NCBI GenBank assembly: GCA_013290085.1
Contig: JABCYS010000006.1
Span: forward strand, 1-17,828
Source of the DNA: Candidatus Babelota bacterium
Lineage (GTDB): Bacteria; Dependentiae; Babeliae; Babeliales; JABCYS01
DNA: 17,828 nt
Direction: 5' to 3'
This document shows, in pieces, positions 1-16,626 of this stretch. The notes beneath the pieces were generated by a model. It had not been told where the DNA came from. It did no database searches and saw only the letters and a list, made by a program, of their open reading frames with translations. The position numbers and the translations under genes were made by a program. Each line of letters opens with the position of its first letter. Positions within the stretch are counted from its first letter, which is position 1.

Positions 1-1856
1 GCTGCTTCTTGCGCTATGTCAGCCGCACCCTCTACCACAATGGCAACGTTAGCAATTTTGAGTGCGGGGGCATCATTGATACCATCACCCAGATACCCGA
101 CCTCATATTTTTCTTGGAGCAATTTAATGATTTCATATTTCTGCTCGGGAGCAATACGAGCAAAAATATGATGCTCTAGTACAACTACCTTGCGCCGGTC
201 TGGTGATAATCCTTCAAATGCGTCCCCGGTGATAACGTCTTGCATGGAAGTAGTGATGCCAACCTGTTGTCCAACATATCCTGCAACTTCAGGGCTATCC
301 CCGGTCAGGATTTTAATTTGTACCCCCAAGAGTTGCGCCTCTTTGATTGCTTCAAAGCTGCTTTCTTTAATAGGATCCTCAAAGGCTATGATGCCCAGGA
401 ATTCAAGATCTTTTTCGGCACCTTTGATGTCAGAGAGTTGATCTTGGGTTATTTCTTTTTTTGAAATGGCAATAACGCGTCTACCTTTTTCCCCTTCTGT
501 CTCTACCCAGCGCGCAATATCTTCCTTCTTTTTTTGATCTAAATTCTTGGCAGTTTTTTCTAATTCCTCATAGGCACCGCGAACAATTAAAAAATAAGTG
601 TCTCCTTTTTTTCTCACCATGCTGCCACGTCGACGCGCCGGCTCAAATGGAACCTCTGCCACCATTTCATATTCAGCCAACTGGCTTTTGTGTTCTGGTG
701 AAATATAAGAAAAGAGTGCGGTATCAAAAGCGGTGCCCGCATGTTTTTTATTTTTTAGTGAGATATCAGTGCTCAGAAGTGACGCAAAAAAAGCGGTCAT
801 TGCTTTATCATCTGCATAGATATCAGTCACGACGAGTTTATTTTCTGTCAAAGTTCCCGTTTTATCCGTACAGAGTACTTGAATACTTCCCAAATCTTCG
901 ATGGCAGATAAGCGCTTTACTACCACCTTGCTCCGCGCTAGAAGTTGAGCACCCTGTGATAGGCAAAAGGTAAGTACGGTAGGAAGAAGTTCGGGGATAA
1001 TGGTTACGGTAAGTGCGATAATGAACACAAGAAATTTAGTATCGAGCAATGATGCACTCTGAAGGAAAAAGTGAACAACAAGAATTAATCCCAGCGTGAT
1101 CAAGACCATTAAAATAATAAATTTTGATAACCGGTTAATATTTTTTGAAAAGGTGCTTTCTCGTTCTGTTTCATGAATAAGTTGAGAAATAGAACCTAAT
1201 TTTGTTTTTAATCCGGTAGCAACAACAACCCCTTTTGCATTGCCACCAACTACCGTTGTTCCGGCAAAGCAAAAATTGGTCGCTTGAAAAAATTGTTTCG
1301 GCAGTTCTGGCAAAGCGTCACTTATTTTTGCAACCGGTATTGCCTCCCCAGAAATAACTGATTCATCGACAAATAATCCCTGGCACTCTAGTACCCGTAT
1401 ATCGGCGGGCACTGAATCGCCAGGTTCGAGAAAAACTATATCGCCTGGTACCAATTCTCGAGTTGGCACGAGTGCCTGCTTGCCGGCACGAAGAATTTTT
1501 TCATGGGAGACTATGTATGTCTTGAGCAAGCGCAATGTTTGTGATGCTTTGTATTCCTGATAAAAGCCAAGGAAGCTATTGGCAATAACAATTATTAAAA
1601 TAAGTGCGCCTTCTATGACATCCCCTGTTCCTAAAAAGGCAATCAAGGAGGCCAAAAAAAGAAGATACACAAAGGGGGACTTTAATTGTCGGAAAAAAAT
1701 CTGCCACCAGGTAGCTTCGTGCGATTCAACTTCATTAAACCCATACGTGCGCTGGAGATTTTTGACTGTCTTTAAAGAAAGGCCTTTCTCTGCTGAGGTT
1801 CCCAACTCTTTGAGAACGTCAGCTATGTGCTGGGTACAATAGACGAATAAATTCAT
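1..1856 (-). CDS. MgtA-like P-type (P3B) cation-transporting ATPase, C-terminus cut off by window edge
   Basis: This gene starts at ATG 1856 (AAGGAGG four bases upstream) and stays open to base 1, giving 618 residues of a protein usually near 850-900. I translated it through without a frameshift. Visible order: an N-terminal cation-ATPase segment; first membrane pair (FVYLLFLASLIAFLG region); actuator domain with DESVISGEA (the TGES-like loop); a membrane segment with IPELLPT; the phosphorylation motif CTDKTGTLTEN with Asp331; a nucleotide-binding domain with FEPARRR; then LTGDSP, DPIKES and GDGINDAPALK of the P domain. IPELLP followed by VVVKRLSAIEDLG matches the MgtA/MgtB Mg2+ importer group rather than Ca2+ or heavy-metal pumps. 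The usual KGA of the nucleotide site reads RGA (residue about 434). It follows trxB by 30 nt and is probably cotranscribed. The inner-membrane location and Mg2+ substrate are inferred from the family; the final membrane segments lie outside the window. Confidence 0.88.
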   Translation of the reverse strand, partial: MNLFVYCTQHIADVLKELGTSAEKGLSLKTVKNLQRTYGFNEVESHEATWWQIFFRQLKSPFVYLLFLASLIAFLGTGDVIEGALILIIVIANSFLGFYQEYKASQTLRLLKTYIVSHEKILRAGKQALVPTRELVPGDIVFLEPGDSVPADIRVLECQGLFVDESVISGEAIPVAKISDALPELPKQFFQATNFCFAGTTVVGGNAKGVVVATGLKTKLGSISQLIHETERESTFSKNINRLSKFIILMVLITLGLILVVHFFLQSASLLDTKFLVFIIALTVTIIPELLPTVLTFCLSQGAQLLARSKVVVKRLSAIEDLGSIQVLCTDKTGTLTENKLVVTDIYADDKAMTAFFASLLSTDISLKNKKHAGTAFDTALFSYISPEHKSQLAEYEMVAEVPFEPARRRGSMVRKKGDTYFLIVRGAYEELEKTAKNLDQKKKEDIARWVETEGEKGRRVIAISKKEITQDQLSDIKGAEKDLEFLGIIAFEDPIKESSFEAIKEAQLLGVQIKILTGDSPEVAGYVGQQVGITTSMQDVITGDAFEGLSPDRRKVVVLEHHIFARIAPEQKYEIIKLLQEKYEVGYLGDGINDAPALKIANVAIVVEGAADIAQEA

Positions 1857-1886
1857 CAAACCTCCTTATGCGGAAGATTTCTTCCT

Positions 1887-2978
1887 TTAACCATGTTTGC
1901 CACAGAAGCAATATGAATGAAGTGCTCGTTCCTTACCAAGCAGTTCACTTAAATAATCTTCTGCATCAACCGCGGCCATAGCTCCTGAGCCTGCGGCAGT
2001 TATTGCGGGACGATATCCATGATCAGCAACATTGCCCGCAACATAAACACCTTCAACCGATGCTTTGGTAAAACGGTCACAAACACAGATAAAGCCGCCT
2101 TCTGTCATTTTTAGTTGGCCTTTAAAAATATCTGAGCAGGGTAAGAATCCGATAGCAATAAAAAGGCCGTCTATGGTAAAAAGTGTTTCTTTGCCGGATA
2201 AAGCATCTTTCAGTTGTAAGCCGGTAACTTTTTCGCCATTACCTTTAATTTCTTTTAATTCGGTACTGTACATAATTTTGATGAAAGGATTTTCTTTAAC
2301 ACGATTGTACCAGTAAGGAGAAGCACTCAATTTGTCAGAGTGATGGATAATCGTAATATCCTTGGTGTAGTTGGCAAGAAAGAGCGCTCTTCCCATAGCT
2401 AGGTCACCACCACCGATTACTGCAACTTTTTTATTTTTATACAAAGGACCGTCACATAAAGCACATACGGTAATTCCTTTGCCCCAATATTCTTTTTCTC
2501 CAGGGCAATTGAGTTTTCGTGGCAGGAGTCCGGTTGCGATAATGACCGTATGTGTTTTTAATTCGCGACCGGTATCAGTTTTAATCGTAAAAGGTCGTTT
2601 TGAAAAATCGGCGGCTGTTACCCATTCAGGCAAAAGTGTCGCACCACGCGCTGCTGCATTTTCTTGTGCCGCGCCCATAACTGTTGGGCCTGTGGGCTCT
2701 ATAATGCCCGGCCAGTTTTCTAAGGGGCCCGATGTCATAAGAATGCCGCCAGGATTACCCTCTATCACGACCGGGTTAAATCCTTCATTGGCCAAATACA
2801 GGGCTGCGGCAAGCCCTGCAGGACCAGAGCCGATGATAACAACATTTTTAATCTCAGAATCTTGAATCATTCCTGCTTGAGCAACCCCAACCAATTCAGA
2901 ATCTTGAATCGCTCCTGCCTGAGCAACCTGCGTTAATCCAACCAAGATGCAAAAGGAAAAGATATTGAATTGTTTCAT
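1887..2978 (-). CDS. trxB: Thioredoxin reductase-like flavoprotein with N-terminal signal peptide
   Basis: 363 residues; bacterial TrxB is about 310-320. The extra length is mainly an N-terminal signal peptide (MKQFNIFSFCILVGLTQVAQA) plus a duplicated 14-residue segment. Core: FAD-binding GSGPAG at 50-55, redox pair C172-A-L-C175 followed by DG, second nucleotide fold GGGDLA at 189-194, and C-terminal FAD motif AGNVADHGYRPAITAAG at 314-330. Family function is NAD(P)H-dependent reduction of thioredoxin. Oddities: the NADPH 2'-phosphate motif HRRxxxR is replaced by HHSDKLS at 212-218, the usual AGD is AGN, and the C-terminus carries CFC (357-359). The first ATG has AGAGGA upstream; the internal Met37 has no properly spaced ribosome site, so I keep the long form. 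Export implies a periplasmic role, unusual for this enzyme. Family assignment is firm; electron donor and partner are not known. Confidence 0.87.
   Translation of the reverse strand: MKQFNIFSFCILVGLTQVAQAGAIQDSELVGVAQAGMIQDSEIKNVVIIGSGPAGLAAALYLANEGFNPVVIEGNPGGILMTSGPLENWPGIIEPTGPTVMGAAQENAAARGATLLPEWVTAADFSKRPFTIKTDTGRELKTHTVIIATGLLPRKLNCPGEKEYWGKGITVCALCDGPLYKNKKVAVIGGGDLAMGRALFLANYTKDITIIHHSDKLSASPYWYNRVKENPFIKIMYSTELKEIKGNGEKVTGLQLKDALSGKETLFTIDGLFIAIGFLPCSDIFKGQLKMTEGGFICVCDRFTKASVEGVYVAGNVADHGYRPAITAAGSGAMAAVDAEDYLSELLGKERALHSYCFCGKHG
2854..2937 (-). repeat. 42-bp tandem duplication inside the trxB signal-peptide region
   Basis: Two adjacent 42-bp units (2854-2895 and 2896-2937) share a nearly identical 33-bp part with three differences. 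In protein they read VAQAGAIQDSELVG and VAQAGMIQDSEIKN, so the possible signal-peptidase site VAQA|G occurs twice in a row. The duplication is in frame (14 codons). Confidence 0.85.
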
Positions 2979-3079: not shown

Positions 3080-4564
3080 TTAATACACCACCCCCGCCTT
3101 AAACCATGCTGTCCAGCGATCGAGTGTGGTGTTATCTCCTGAAAACTCATACGAGCCACCTATGCCAAGCATTGGTGACCAGGAATCTTTTGAATTTTTT
3201 TGATAGCCAAGAGAAAGGTAAAGAACGCTACTTATGAGTGCCGGGTGTGCCGCACTTGTTATATCAAGATCTTCTCGTGCTAGTATGGCATATTGCGACA
3301 AAGGAAAATCATCGACTGCATTAGCACCATGATTGATTGTTCTTGCTTTTGTTGTTTGACCTGAACCACCCTTTGCCACTAATGCCGGACCACTCAAACA
3401 TTTTTCGAGGCGCACTTTTTCCGCTTGCCGTGAAGTAAGGTTATAGCCCCCTTCAAGATGCCATGGTTTATGTTTGTACAAAAGAGCAAGATTGTATCGG
3501 TGCAAAAAGCGTGGCGTCACTCTTAAACAACGAGTAAATACGTTAATGCCTGGTGAACCGATATCGCCGGTGGCCGGCGTTGACGCATTAAACGCTGCTT
3601 GTGCAGCATCTTTATTCACATACACTTCCATGTAGCGACCCCATTGTTTGTCGGTAAGATCAAAGGAACGCACTTGGGAATTTTCAAAAAGGTACTGACT
3701 ATTCCCCGTAATGATAAAATAAAAGCTATCAATACCATCGTTATAAAATTCTTCTGCAAGCATACTTCCCGTCATGATCCCAAAGTGTTGGTTGTTCCCC
3801 ACTATTGGCTCAAAGACAAGCTTGCCTTCTGGTTTATTGCCGGTGGGAATAACAAGACCGATGTAAGATTCTCCGTGACTTTTTCCGGTTGTTTTCCATT
3901 GATAGCCCACTTGCAACTCAATATCAGCAATTCTGGTTCTGCTATGGTGTTCACCATCAATACGACCAAATTCCCATATCGTTTGCTTAAATGCCTGGGT
4001 TACGTTAGCAACACGAGGAACAAGTGCTGATTCCAGCGTACCGCCCGCGTCTTCTATTGTTTCGCACAGTTTTGCTTTATTGCGAACTACTTCAATTGGC
4101 GCTGATGCAGCAACCCACCACTTGCTATCTTTCTCTTTAAATATACGCGCTCGGGCCGCCAGACCAATACCAAAAACATCTTGCTCAAAAATAAATTTAA
4201 CTTTGCTTTGAAAGGTATTGCCCGGAGCATCGTGAGCAATATTGAGATGAACCGCATCTACATCACGAGAGGCTACATCTGATGCGCCATCTTCGGCAAC
4301 CAAAAGTTCGCATTTGCCGAATGGTAAAAAGTATTGAGCTAATCGATTTGAATTATGGGATTTGCCACCGTAGGCAACTGCCTCAAACACTAAACGCTTG
4401 GTATCGTTCATTACAAAATGATCACGAAAGAGAGCTTCTCTTTCAGGGGTACCGGCTTGAAATTGTGGTATAGCGGTAAAGAATGTTCTGCTTTTGATAT
4501 CATACTCAGATGCAAAACTCATCAGGGGTAGGGCAACAACTAAGGCTGCTAGACTTTTCTTCAT
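3080..4564 (-). CDS. Predicted outer-membrane beta-barrel protein of unknown function
   Basis: 494 residues. The N-terminus MKKSLAALVVALPLMSFA is a clear Sec signal peptide, with cleavage likely just before SEYD. The mature part has no hydrophobic helix. It alternates polar and aromatic/aliphatic residues in strand-like runs with Gly/Tyr/Trp content (for example IELQVGYQWKTTG, LYLSLGYQKN, GIGGSYEFSG). It ends in DRWTAWFKAGVVY, a terminal strand with a C-terminal aromatic residue as in barrels assembled by the BAM complex. Four cysteines (85, 167, 346, 389) are the only ones in the protein and could form two disulfides. AAGGA lies 6 nt before the ATG. No named family recognised; a porin-like or adhesin role would be a guess. 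It lies between the ATP/ADP translocase and the exported thioredoxin reductase. Confidence 0.75.
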   Translation of the reverse strand: MKKSLAALVVALPLMSFASEYDIKSRTFFTAIPQFQAGTPEREALFRDHFVMNDTKRLVFEAVAYGGKSHNSNRLAQYFLPFGKCELLVAEDGASDVASRDVDAVHLNIAHDAPGNTFQSKVKFIFEQDVFGIGLAARARIFKEKDSKWWVAASAPIEVVRNKAKLCETIEDAGGTLESALVPRVANVTQAFKQTIWEFGRIDGEHHSRTRIADIELQVGYQWKTTGKSHGESYIGLVIPTGNKPEGKLVFEPIVGNNQHFGIMTGSMLAEEFYNDGIDSFYFIITGNSQYLFENSQVRSFDLTDKQWGRYMEVYVNKDAAQAAFNASTPATGDIGSPGINVFTRCLRVTPRFLHRYNLALLYKHKPWHLEGGYNLTSRQAEKVRLEKCLSGPALVAKGGSGQTTKARTINHGANAVDDFPLSQYAILAREDLDITSAAHPALISSVLYLSLGYQKNSKDSWSPMLGIGGSYEFSGDNTTLDRWTAWFKAGVVY

Positions 4565-10407: not shown

Positions 10408-11118
10408 ATGAAGCGTAGCAGCCTTTTATTGCTGAGCATTATCTTCATGTCGCTTTTATGCCACGCAAAGCACCGCATAAGCTTTTTTGTTCAAACCTAT
10501 CCAGAACTTATGAGCAAAGCTGACATAGAAAAAATAGTCAGCCATGCCACCAATCCTCAAAAGGCAATTTCTCAGATTTTAAACGCAGACCAGGCATCAA
10601 AACCCTTCTCGGGCCTTTTTGCTTCGTATGCTGGTTATGCAACCATTTCAAGTGCTTTTAATGGGGAAATTTCTTTCCCTAAAAAACAAAAGGATCCTTT
10701 TTTTTATATGGTTGTTACCCCACGCATTACGCCGGTTATGATGCTTGGCGCTACCGTACACCACTGGCAGCTGTCAAAAGATCTTCCGGCTGCATTTTAT
10801 GCGATAGACCGTAAGCAGGACCCTGATACAAAAAATTATTTTTGGTCTACGCGCAACGCTGAGATACCAGAGTCGGGCATTGTGCCTCTATCGTCCATTG
10901 TTGTTTTTGCCAAACCTAAAAACATCTATTTGCCTTTAGGCATAACCCCTACCAATGGTGATCCGCAATTTGTACTCCCTACCCTGTATGCTCGTAAGGA
11001 CATTGATTTGGTTACCAGCGCCCTATCCTTATTGAATGTAAAACATTTCTTTAGATCTGTTCGCTCACTCTACAAAAAAGGAACAAGCCAATCATGGATC
11101 TCGCAAATCCAAGGTTAG
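10408..11118 (+). CDS. Exported protein of unknown function
   Basis: 236 residues. MKRSSLLLLSIIFMSLLCHA is a strong Sec signal peptide, cleaved probably before KHR. The Cys at 18 lacks a proper lipobox, so a lipoprotein is unlikely; the mature chain has no cysteine and no further hydrophobic helix. It contains a soluble mixed alpha/beta-like sequence with the recognisable stretches TYPELMSKADIEKIVSHATN and FFYMVVTPRITPVMMLGATVHHW, and ends with a basic segment (FFRSVRSLYKKGTSQS). I do not recognise a family. The ribosome site AGGGGGA precedes the ATG well. It is divergent from rsmG and lies 81 nt upstream of the hexulose-phosphate synthase-like gene on the same strand. A periplasmic or secreted location is inferred from the signal peptide only. 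Confidence 0.72.
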   Translation: MKRSSLLLLSIIFMSLLCHAKHRISFFVQTYPELMSKADIEKIVSHATNPQKAISQILNADQASKPFSGLFASYAGYATISSAFNGEISFPKKQKDPFFYMVVTPRITPVMMLGATVHHWQLSKDLPAAFYAIDRKQDPDTKNYFWSTRNAEIPESGIVPLSSIVVFAKPKNIYLPLGITPTNGDPQFVLPTLYARKDIDLVTSALSLLNVKHFFRSVRSLYKKGTSQSWISQIQG

Positions 11119-11888: not shown

Positions 11889-13787
11889 TCACGCCATGAT
11901 TCCTCTTGCACGATTATTGTGACTATCCAACTTATTTTTTGACTTCATTCTTTTGGCCACGCGAAGATTCTTTTTTGATGTTTTAGCATGAGCCTGGGGC
12001 GCGGGCACTTCATATTCCCTGCCCTTTCTTTGTTCTGGGCTAAAAACATCTTTCAGGCGCCCTTTTATCGCGGGCGTAAAGCTTTCCCCTGAAGGAATGT
12101 ATTTTTGCAAATATGCTGAGGCACGGCCAGCATAATTTGGGTTAATTTCTTCTAGTTTAAAACCCTCCTTAAGACTTTTTCGTTGCCAACCATACGCTTT
12201 TCCCTTGTAGGTAAAACAAATAATAGCTGAATCGGATGAAGGATTTTTAAATCCAAAAAAGGATTTTGTAAGGTCTGCATCTTGTCCACGATGCATACAA
12301 AGAACATTAGACAAAGTGACTACAGGACGCCCCTCCTCAAGATCATTGGCGACTACCAACTTTTTAATAAAAAATACTTTTTCATCGGGGATATCGGGAT
12401 AACTAAGAAATGATTTGAATAAGCTGCTTGCATTGTAACTTTGCGCAAGAATAGATGAAAACACGTGGCAAGCATCCCCTGGTATCATTGAAACTACAAT
12501 GGGACAGTCATCTGCAGAGCGAGGAGATTGTCGATACATCAGAGAAAAGGGAATGTCGGGCGCATATAAAAGAATTAATTTCTGTTGTTCTAGTAAGATA
12601 GGTTTCTCCCTAGTTGCGGCCAAAACTTTTCCAATAGATAGAGCAAACTCCTTTATATCTGGCACATTAAACCATTCCGTGCCGGGAAATTTTATAAGTG
12701 GGGTATTCTCTTTTGGCTGTAATGAGAATTGAAAAAGATCCTCAAGGGCCTCTGCCCAATTAATAGTCTTATTTCTCTTTTCACATTCGGCAAAAAAGGC
12801 ACCAAAATCTTGGGACCCCGCGGTCACTTTGCTTTCGGAAATTCCCGCTAAAGCTATAACAAAGGGATGTTGTTCCACATAGCCCGTTTTTATATCTTTA
12901 ATATAGGTCTCGTAAAGATTTGAGCCCGCGGCATAACAAGAGGTATATGCAAAAACAGAGACCGGCACTTTTTTGGTAAAATAGTTCAGAAGTTTTTTAA
13001 ATTCTGGTATCTCCAGTGCAGCTATTTTACCGAACGAGCCATGTCCAGAAAGGTATATGGCCCAATGCTTGTCATCACTCGTTGAAGGCGTGAATATAGA
13101 ATCAAATTCAGCTAATAATTTCGCACCAAGATTCGTAGAATCTCCTGCGTCAGATAGACTGAACTCTTCTTTCAAAACACTCTCATATCTATCGCGACCT
13201 AATTCCAATCCTAATGTTTTCCCCATTTTTTCTTGATATTCTTTTGGAATGAGCAGTACAAAATTTTCCCCTGTGTTACCGTACACCCACTCATCTGGAT
13301 TAAAATGGATACGCAATATTACCATGGCCACTATATGCCAGACCACAAGAAAATCAGGCAGCGAACCATAAAGCTCTGTAAACCTGGCCGCCCTCTTTTT
13401 TGATTCTTCCTTACTTCTTTCCCTAAGGCTCCCTAGTTGTAAAATCTCAATGTATTTTGGATAATTCTCTTTGAGTGCGTAATCAAGCGCACTATATTTT
13501 TTATCAAAATCTTGTTTGTCCAATTTTTGCACATCATCAATTAATTTTCTTCCCCACACGAATCTCTTCCAAAGATCCTTAGTCATTAGGATGGGGCATG
13601 TCTTTGTCTCGATCAAGTCAAGCAACTGACGCGTAACTCCCATAGAAGGATTCCCGACACGACCTTCTTCCGTATCAAGTAAGATAGCTAATCGGTTGGT
13701 TGCAAATGGCCGCCCATATTCGCTCATCCCCATTATGTAGGCACATTGTCCTAGTGCAACACCTAATAACACAAAATGAATGCGCAT
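11889..13787 (-). CDS. Exported caspase-like (clan CD) cysteine peptidase candidate
   Basis: 632 residues from the ATG at 13787, preceded by GAGGGAG at 7 nt; a GTG at 13808 would add seven charged residues before the signal peptide and cover that site, so I reject it. MRIHFVLLGVALGQCAYIMG is a signal peptide. The middle domain (about 240-345) shows the clan CD pattern: hydrophobic strand and His249 in WAIYLSGHGSFG, then hydrophobic strand and Cys284 in VSVFAYTSCYAAGSNLYETY, with further strand HPFVIALAG after. This is the arrangement of caspases, metacaspases, clostripain and gingipains. The N-terminal region (60-160) is helical and charged; the C-terminal 200 residues are not recognised; the last 35 residues are very basic (TSKKNLRVAKRMKSKNK). 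Peptidase activity and any role on host proteins are inference. It is a single gene with a repeat-rich upstream spacer. Confidence 0.7.
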   Translation of the reverse strand: MRIHFVLLGVALGQCAYIMGMSEYGRPFATNRLAILLDTEEGRVGNPSMGVTRQLLDLIETKTCPILMTKDLWKRFVWGRKLIDDVQKLDKQDFDKKYSALDYALKENYPKYIEILQLGSLRERSKEESKKRAARFTELYGSLPDFLVVWHIVAMVILRIHFNPDEWVYGNTGENFVLLIPKEYQEKMGKTLGLELGRDRYESVLKEEFSLSDAGDSTNLGAKLLAEFDSIFTPSTSDDKHWAIYLSGHGSFGKIAALEIPEFKKLLNYFTKKVPVSVFAYTSCYAAGSNLYETYIKDIKTGYVEQHPFVIALAGISESKVTAGSQDFGAFFAECEKRNKTINWAEALEDLFQFSLQPKENTPLIKFPGTEWFNVPDIKEFALSIGKVLAATREKPILLEQQKLILLYAPDIPFSLMYRQSPRSADDCPIVVSMIPGDACHVFSSILAQSYNASSLFKSFLSYPDIPDEKVFFIKKLVVANDLEEGRPVVTLSNVLCMHRGQDADLTKSFFGFKNPSSDSAIICFTYKGKAYGWQRKSLKEGFKLEEINPNYAGRASAYLQKYIPSGESFTPAIKGRLKDVFSPEQRKGREYEVPAPQAHAKTSKKNLRVAKRMKSKNKLDSHNNRARGIMA

Positions 13788-14883: not shown

Positions 14884-16626
14884 TTACTTTTTAGAAAACT
14901 GGTCTTTGTACATATTTTTTATTTCGGTAACCGCGGTTGCATCTTGCGCAGACTTGTCCGGGCGGTATCCCATGAACCGTGGAAACCGTAATGCATAGCC
15001 CTGATGTTCTGCGGTCTTGTGTGCTGTGTGTAACGGAGAGAGGGTAATTTCATCGGCACGAACCATACATACGATTTCTGGTGTAACCCAAACATCGGGA
15101 TAAAGTTCCTTCGCGCAATCAACACGCGCTGGCTTTGATGCCACTTTGATTCGGTCACAACGATGCTTAAGATCTTTCCATTCTGCATCGGTCATTCCCG
15201 TACCAATCTTGGCGATGGTTTGCAAAGTATCATTTGTTTTGTTGTATACCCCAACCAAGAATGCTCCCACACCAAAGCTTGCGCGTTTACCGCTCCCAGC
15301 ATAATAACCGAGAATTACACAATCAATCGTATCTTCAAGATGTCCTTCTTCCTGACGTTTTAATTTAATCCAGTTAAAGTTACGTTTTCCTGGTTGATAG
15401 ATAGAGTCTGGTTTTTTTACCACCAGTCCTTCAAGGCCAGATGCTATATTTGCATGAAAATAGTCTTCTAAATCTTTGGCGTTATCTATTTTCTTTTCAT
15501 CTATTACGCTCACCACATTCGTATCTGAATGTTTAAAAAGCTTCTCAAGAGCTGCACGTCGTTGGGTATGAGTTTTTTCCATGTAGTCATCGCCATCGAG
15601 GTAGAGAAGATCAAAAATATAGACATGGAGTGGATAGTCGCTTATTGCTTCTTCTATACCGTGTTTCCTTTTGCGCTTAACGGTTTCTTGGAATTTTAAA
15701 TAAGTTTTTGTTCCTTCATCGTATGCAATAGCTTCGCCTTCACAAATTAGTTCCTCGGCATCAATTTTAATTACTTCTTTTACTAAATCAGGAAACATGT
15801 GCGACATATCTTGTAGATTACGGGAGAAAAAATAGACCTCAGGATGTTTGCCTTTTTTCTTCATATGAATTTGCAAACGGAACCCATCTATCTTCGGCTG
15901 CGCAACGCAGTGTCCTAACTTTTCTATGATAGCTTTGGCTGTTGGTAGTCGTTCAGCCGCCGCAGGACGAATGGGAATCCCCACATGGATTTTCATATGT
16001 TCAATAGCTTTTATGCCCTTTTCTTTTAAGGTGTAGGCAATCAAGCCGATGTCTGCGCAGATATTGTAAGCATTTTCAAGAATCCCCCGCAGTGACTTGT
16101 CGCCCTTTTCCATCCATGAAAGCGCGTCCACAATGGTCATGTCTGAAAATCCAAGGCGCAATGTTCCAAGAATGATACGGACAACATATTTGCCCGAGAC
16201 AGGATCTAAACCTTTGAGAAGCTTGATGATTGCTTTTCCTTTTTCTTCTTGCGATCCCGTTCCGCTTATTTTTTCTAGATCACAGAGGTCATCATAGACC
16301 TGGGTGATAGTTGGGTGGTGAGTAACTCGCCATTCCCCCTCTGCCACTACAGAGCCGAGGTCACCCACCTTTTTTGCATGGGCTTGGACAGTTGATTCTG
16401 ATTTGTCCAAAAGTTCGGCAAGAACTTTAATAAAACTTTTTTCAGCAAAATTAAATTGGGTGCCTTGGTACGGTGGCCGCAGAAGGCCTAAAGAAAGATT
16501 GGTAATCACCTTTGCTTCTTCTGGGGTGGCTTTTTTAAAAAGCTCTGCCAAAAGCTCGGTCATTTTTAAACGGGAACTTTCTTGCTCTATCTGTTCAAAT
16601 GTCTTGGCTACTTCGTAAAACTGCAT
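14884..16626 (-). CDS. ATP-dependent DNA ligase, archaeal/eukaryotic type
   Basis: 580 residues, the size of archaeal replicative ligases. Domains in order: N-terminal helical DNA-binding domain (about 1-205), adenylation domain with the AMP-accepting lysine Lys245 in QPKIDGFR (motif I), LICEGEAIAYD (motif III), SGLEGLVVKKP (motif IV), NFNWIKLKR (motif V), then the OB-fold domain with RVDCAKELYPDVWVTPEIV and the C-terminal block ALRFPRFMGYRPDKSAQDATAVTEI. It seals nicks in DNA with ATP. Most bacteria replicate with NAD+-dependent LigA; this three-domain archaeal-type ligase is the less usual form and is probably a repair or replication accessory, acquired by transfer. AAGGGA sits 5 nt before the ATG. 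It lies 62 nt downstream of pgsA. Confidence 0.95.
   Translation of the reverse strand: MQFYEVAKTFEQIEQESSRLKMTELLAELFKKATPEEAKVITNLSLGLLRPPYQGTQFNFAEKSFIKVLAELLDKSESTVQAHAKKVGDLGSVVAEGEWRVTHHPTITQVYDDLCDLEKISGTGSQEEKGKAIIKLLKGLDPVSGKYVVRIILGTLRLGFSDMTIVDALSWMEKGDKSLRGILENAYNICADIGLIAYTLKEKGIKAIEHMKIHVGIPIRPAAAERLPTAKAIIEKLGHCVAQPKIDGFRLQIHMKKKGKHPEVYFFSRNLQDMSHMFPDLVKEVIKIDAEELICEGEAIAYDEGTKTYLKFQETVKRKRKHGIEEAISDYPLHVYIFDLLYLDGDDYMEKTHTQRRAALEKLFKHSDTNVVSVIDEKKIDNAKDLEDYFHANIASGLEGLVVKKPDSIYQPGKRNFNWIKLKRQEEGHLEDTIDCVILGYYAGSGKRASFGVGAFLVGVYNKTNDTLQTIAKIGTGMTDAEWKDLKHRCDRIKVASKPARVDCAKELYPDVWVTPEIVCMVRADEITLSPLHTAHKTAEHQGYALRFPRFMGYRPDKSAQDATAVTEIKNMYKDQFSKK

Follow-up and report, generated by a model that had tools for sequence, protein, structure and literature searches.

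A predicted exported clan CD-type cysteine peptidase at a Dependentiae locus and its family, patchy and amplified in the phylum

The stretch of DNA analysed here (17,828 nt, positions 1 to 17,828 of contig JABCYS010000006.1 of a Candidatus Babelota bacterium, phylum Dependentiae; hereafter the window) contains a minus-strand gene, called P0001, with an AGGGAG 5' of its start codon as judged by eye. The deduced product is a putative exported cysteine peptidase of clan CD (caspase/legumain fold), with a signal-peptide-like N-terminus, a predicted catalytic domain, a conserved beta-rich domain and a basic tail (Table 1). The finding exceeds one gene: P0001 belongs to a family that is spread through the phylum. 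Its fold class and catalytic dyad, the family itself and the distribution of the family in the phylum are well supported.

Table 1. Coordinates in the window of the P0001 gene, its predicted features and the adjoining elements
Feature	Position	Strand	Basis or remark
P0001 coding sequence (632 aa) for a predicted exported cysteine peptidase of clan CD type	11889..13787	-	ATG at 13787
Signal-peptide-like N-terminus, residues 1-20	13728..13787	-	Hydrophobicity heuristic
Catalytic domain of clan CD type (predicted), residues 26-378	12654..13712	-	AlphaFold2, Foldseek, VIA-align
Gly248-His249-Gly250, predicted catalytic His directly after strand 242-247	13038..13046	-	Model and conservation
Cys284, predicted nucleophile, closing strand 276-284	12936..12938	-	Model and conservation
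Conserved acidic pair Asp38 and Glu41 following the first strand, candidate S1 pocket	13665..13676	-	
Glu318, mostly acidic position after strand 310-316, candidate S1 pocket	12834..12836	-	
C-terminal conserved beta-rich domain, residues 376-570, without recognised fold	12078..12662	-	
Low-confidence basic tail, residues 571-632, with K/R-rich [LF]RVA motif	11892..12077	-	
Adjoining signal-bearing ankyrin protein, 169 aa	14090..14599	-	Genomic context only
Perfect 11-bp inverted repeat directly past the ankyrin stop codon	14050..14082	.	

The motifs GHG (His249) and SCYAAG (Cys284) are separated by 35 residues in P0001, confirming the positions at which an earlier reading of this DNA, made without database searches (the sequence-only reading), had placed them. 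A comparable pair of His and Cys motifs appeared in 64 of 20000 shuffles of P0001, and was present in 102 of 112 family open reading frames (ORFs) versus 4 of 262 other ORFs, two of these four being distant family members (L104 and L105) dropped by the HMMER filters; taken alone, the motif pair in P0001 is suggestive at most. The 112 ORFs are those with E <= 1e-5 in the fetched regions, and the divergent L104 and L105 fall outside them. GHG and [YF]x[TS]C were present in all nine proteins of a first alignment (A1, P0001 and eight relatives), and G248, H249, G250 and C284 were the sole invariant columns of a 36-member alignment (A3), in which the sequences are 18 to 40% identical to P0001. An HG with a suitably spaced Cys was found in 64/64 first-round ORFs, a count that rests on a permissive pattern with no alignment, and the His-to-Cys spacing in these members spans 35 to 146 residues. 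When the 112 ORFs were aligned to the profile, 110 retained His249, while Gly250 and Cys284 were each retained by 111; at held-out loci (n=45), which had not been used in profile building, the His was kept in 43/45 and the Cys in 44/45. P0001 was also aligned separately with the held-out ORFs other than L091 (44 of 45), and only the G248, H249, G250 and C284 columns reached 90% or more. Conservation among homologues thus settles that the motif pair noted in the sequence-only reading is real.

The structural elements of clan CD domains are arranged in the order b1-a1-b2-a2-b3-a3-b4-a4-b5-a5-b6. The AlphaFold2 model of P0001 has at least six strands in a central sheet with helices on its flanks, which is how the clan CD fold is described (PMC4357240; this and the other papers cited below are drawn on from portions of their texts). 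Strand 242-247 is predicted to lead to His249 and strand 276-284 to end at Cys284, the placement expected in clan CD, whose catalytic His and Cys stand at the ends of the counterparts of caspase strands 3 and 4, and the VIA-align list for the model consists uniformly of clan CD rows. Structure prediction and fold comparison thus support the clan CD-type fold that had been suspected from the motifs, together with the position of the Cys motif after a strand. The ~240 residues preceding the motifs had been described as unrecognised; they instead belong to the predicted fold, contributing its first two strands along with a helical insertion (~residues 70-160). In a viral structure library, the model had no match at E <= 0.001.

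When 5.8 billion proteins were searched with the single P0001 sequence (7996 candidates scored), the eight relatives of P0001 were obtained, none of which has a peptidase name or a Pfam domain. One family locus was obtained from a scan of genome contigs, and its phylum was then searched by profile. Family members were found in 48 of 101 phylum genomes with the first profile and in 60 of 101 with a richer one; Babela massiliensis (G005) and Chromulinavorax destructans (G025), both Dependentiae, carry members, at G005:C1:704239-708594 and G025:C1:838242-839969. Up to nine analysed copies were present per genome (G076), and adjacent copies on the same strand occurred at 11 of the 12 loci listed, these loci having been picked for containing several copies. 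For members in multi-copy genomes, the nearest relative was in the same genome in 55 of 86 cases versus 2.4 expected. The family is patchy and amplified in Dependentiae. The genome of the relative that was closest among those fetched has another copy (G001:C29; L003, L004 and L054), apparently in two pieces.

Leucine-rich repeats (LRR) precede the catalytic domain in P0002, one of the eight relatives. Ankyrin repeats were detected on the C-terminal side of L035, L037 (6024-8834), L039 and L065; the architecture scan covered 20 proteins selected for length or interest, which are no frequency sample for ankyrin, and one or two of 44 further members scanned had such repeats. Eleven shorter ORFs (311 to 415 aa, located in L083, L084, L085, L086 and L089), with matches that stop at or before position 372 of the 607-position profile model, seem from this extent of matching to be the catalytic domain alone. 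When residues 376-590 of P0001 were modelled alone, a predicted local distance difference test score (pLDDT) of 80 and a predicted template modelling score (pTM) of 0.80 were obtained, with residues 376-570 forming a beta-rich domain for which no convincing PDB match was found. A basic K/R-rich [LF]RVA motif occurs near or at the C-terminus of five of the nine A1 proteins (P0001, P0002, P0004, P0005 and P0007) and is possibly a sorting signal; among the 112 fetched family ORFs none contained the pattern, which matched one unrelated ORF.

P0001 was unmatched by Pfam, NCBIfam and PADLOC and in the plasmid search, and no match was found among PDB sequences with either the P0001 single sequence or the A1 profile; with the A3 profile, two chance-level matches only (E 0.87 and 1.5) were found there. 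PHROGs gave a weak tail-spike match only (E 0.022), and two scans of viral contigs gave pattern matches but no relative. As for the profiles of known clan CD families, P0001 had no match to C11 (Pfam PF03415), to C13 (PF01650) at E <= 1 or to Pfam C14 at E <= 1, and C14 was likewise absent among the 9 and 36 members and from the first 25 of 32 families listed for 45 members. PF01650 matched 2 of the 36 A3 members, with a best score of 22.7 bits versus a cut-off of 22.8, both matches spanning the dyad, and the score was 23.2 bits when neighbouring pieces were added in the genome search. The profile check suggested with the sequence-only reading was thus negative for P0001 itself, while two relatives matched C13, the better of them just below the cut-off. 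At a place unlisted for the family (L082, G048:C16), the product of the ORF at 1108-2442 (-) is shorter and matches C13 weakly (E 0.007).

Both Dependentiae genome papers report C11 peptidases (PMC6561590, PMC4378268), and PF03415 is present in 97 of the 101 phylum genomes. The possibility that the family corresponds to these known enzymes was rejected, since the PF03415 places differ and show no overlap with the family among the matches listed, compared by eye; in B. massiliensis, for example, one of three PF03415 matches is at G005:C1:653172 and the family is at G005:C1:704239 and 706672 (704-708 kb). The negative outcome of a profile-profile comparison (0.1%, below) was a further ground for the rejection. 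Ulp1/C48 peptidases, known from B. massiliensis (PMC4378268), were also set aside, as the order and spacing of the His and Cys and the predicted fold are those of clan CD instead. Among the open-access papers listed for Dependentiae and Babeliales, none describes the family in its title or abstract opening, and the consulted portions of PMC6561590 and PMC4378268 name C11 and other peptidases and leave this family unmentioned. It is apparently new to the literature and missed by Pfam and NCBIfam.

The first residues of P0001, MRIHFVLLGVALGQCAYIMGM, satisfy a simple signal-peptide hydrophobicity heuristic, which was positive for 102 of 112 family ORFs versus 141 of 262 other ORFs; the signal peptide assigned earlier therefore passes, by a standard that many unrelated ORFs pass too. 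Judging from this N-terminus, P0001 is likely exported. Because type II is the sole secretion system found in B. massiliensis (PMC4378268), P0001 could plausibly leave the cell through Sec and then type II secretion.

McLuskey and Mottram (PMC4357240) ascribe the P1 preference of clan CD enzymes to residues on alpha1/L1, L4 and L5, which in the Arg-specific paracaspase MALT1 are Asp365, Asp462 and Glu500. In the family, position 38 is D/E in 88 of 98 aligned sequences, position 41 is E/D in 91 of 96, and position 318, after strand 5, is D/E in 77 of 107. Since these acidic positions resemble those of MALT1, a basic P1 residue is predicted, and Arg/Lys is probably preferred, provided that the residue equivalence, which is taken from the predicted model, is right. 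An Arg on L1 is the feature associated with P1-Asp in caspases; by the same model-based equivalence only, Asp or Glu and not Arg stands at positions 38 and 41 of the family.

We propose, with a probability of roughly 0.6, that P0001 is an exported clan CD cysteine endopeptidase most likely acting on proteins of the protist host. The signal peptide would direct it to Sec for export from the cytoplasm, and His249 and Cys284, each terminating one of two neighbouring core strands, would form the catalytic dyad, with Cys284 as the nucleophile. Asp38 and Glu41 (after strand 1) and Glu318 (after strand 5) probably line S1 and favour Arg/Lys at P1, and the C-terminal domain of ~200 residues probably has a part in regulating or positioning the catalytic one, comparable to the C-terminal or pro-domains of other clan CD enzymes. 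Host-directed proteins would suit the family's expansions, its export signals and its repeat domains, and the members would most likely have protist-host proteins as their targets. The sequence-only reading had envisaged a secreted caspase-fold enzyme, standing beside an ankyrin protein, that processes host or envelope proteins; this is partly supported, in that the fold is borne out, and the ankyrin neighbour counts as genomic context. More tentatively, and with somewhat less than even odds, Dependentiae may possess a duplicated arsenal of secreted clan CD effectors with a constant core, often a new C-terminal domain and exchangeable ankyrin or LRR targeting domains. If true, these would be host-directed protease effectors parallel to RARP-2 of Rickettsia, on a far larger scale and unrecognised by Pfam and NCBIfam.

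The same enzyme could act in the bacterium's own envelope, leaving host proteins untouched and maturing or anchoring exported proteins as C25-type sortases or glycosylphosphatidylinositol transamidase do. Such housekeeping predicts one conserved copy per genome, whereas the family is patchy (60/101) and amplified and has variable ankyrin/LRR add-ons, so that we consider this role unlikely. A digestive enzyme that degrades bulk host protein for amino acids, which we rate lower again, would be in keeping with C. destructans, an organism described as being without complete metabolic pathways, whose proteases are proposed to degrade host biopolymers for import (PMC6561590). However, the P1 specificity of clan CD enzymes is narrow as a rule (PMC4357240, its Table 2), and the repeat-domain fusions point to targeting and not to bulk digestion.

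Loss of activity with retention of the fold, making P0001 a pseudo-protease or binding scaffold, is very improbable given that nothing in the family is better conserved than the dyad, although two members of the held-out set may have taken this course: L096 (638-2668, -) apparently lacks both dyad residues and L101 (493-2811, -) has Tyr in place of the His, and on their sequences both are likely pseudo-proteases. Slightest of all is the chance that the motifs are coincidental and P0001 is no clan CD enzyme, against which stand the invariance of the dyad, the placement of both residues at strands, the uniformly clan CD VIA-align list and the C13 profile matches across the dyad in two relatives.

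Several points nevertheless weigh against the proposed host-directed peptidase, beside the two apparent dyad losses and the looseness of the signal heuristic. P0001 has no match to any peptidase profile of Pfam or NCBIfam, and comparison of the family with the C11 enzymes of the phylum gave a profile-profile probability of 0.1%, like two unrelated single-protein controls. The P0001 model, built from eight sequences, is of mid confidence (pLDDT 68), and its best VIA-align Z of 8.1 lies just at the level that the tool calls trustworthy. Foldseek returned no match at E <= 0.001, with 4 of the 50 listed rows belonging to clan CD and with low TM-scores (0.15/0.32 for legumain). The family ORFs, the held-out set included, were found with profiles containing the dyad and are biased to members that keep it. 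Host role, activity, secretion and target all remain predictions.

Compared with known systems, P0001 is closest to the C13 enzymes legumain and glycosylphosphatidylinositol transamidase among others; legumain has a helical LSAM domain (PMC4357240), whereas the C-terminal domain of P0001 is modelled as beta-rich. Among caspases and paracaspases (C14), caspase-7 has Arg87 on L1 (PMC4357240), whereas P0001 is acidic at 38/41, the putatively equivalent positions; P0001 differs further in its export signal and absent C14 match. RARP-2, whose predicted catalytic Cys and ankyrin repeats are both required for Golgi disruption (PMC7259798, PMC11077975), is similar in coming from an obligate intracellular bacterium and in having a clan CD-like active site and ankyrin repeats (present in some family members), a likeness by description. 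It differs in coming from an unrelated phylum and in being a type IV effector; in addition, ankyrin matches are absent from P0001 and from many of the members scanned, P0001 having a C-terminal domain of its own. Orthocaspases and bacterial metacaspases are likewise bacterial clan CD enzymes with a His/Cys dyad, and they cleave after basic residues (PMC6426788); in contrast to them, no Peptidase_C14 was among the matches listed for the scanned members, and P0001 carries an export signal.

Dependentiae are widespread protist parasites, and their genomes encode many secreted proteins of unknown function (PMC6561590, PMC4378268). For one abundant set of proteins, the family supplies a predicted active site and suggests the likely chemistry of catalysis, making host proteolysis by Dependentiae directly testable, and is a good candidate for a tool that these bacteria use on their hosts. 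Clan CD apparently gains a family that was missed by the profile libraries searched and has a C-terminal domain unmatched to known folds.

Two 25-nt direct repeats, 92% alike and 70 bases apart, lie upstream of the P0001 gene (13891-13915 and 13961-13985). The inverted repeat past the ankyrin gene has a T-rich tail on the plus strand only and is thus no clear terminator for the minus-strand genes. Elsewhere in the window, proteins of 494 aa (3080-4564, -) and 236 aa (10408-11118, +) have signal-like starts as judged by eye, with no Pfam match at E <= 1. The gene at 14884-16626 (-) encodes an ATP-dependent DNA ligase with its N, catalytic and C domains all matched, the three-domain type usual in archaea and eukaryotes. 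The window also encodes an ATP/ADP translocase and a GatA that was matched in 90 of the 101 phylum genomes, the best full-length matches being 67% identical, and that is 63% identical to GatA of both B. massiliensis and C. destructans.
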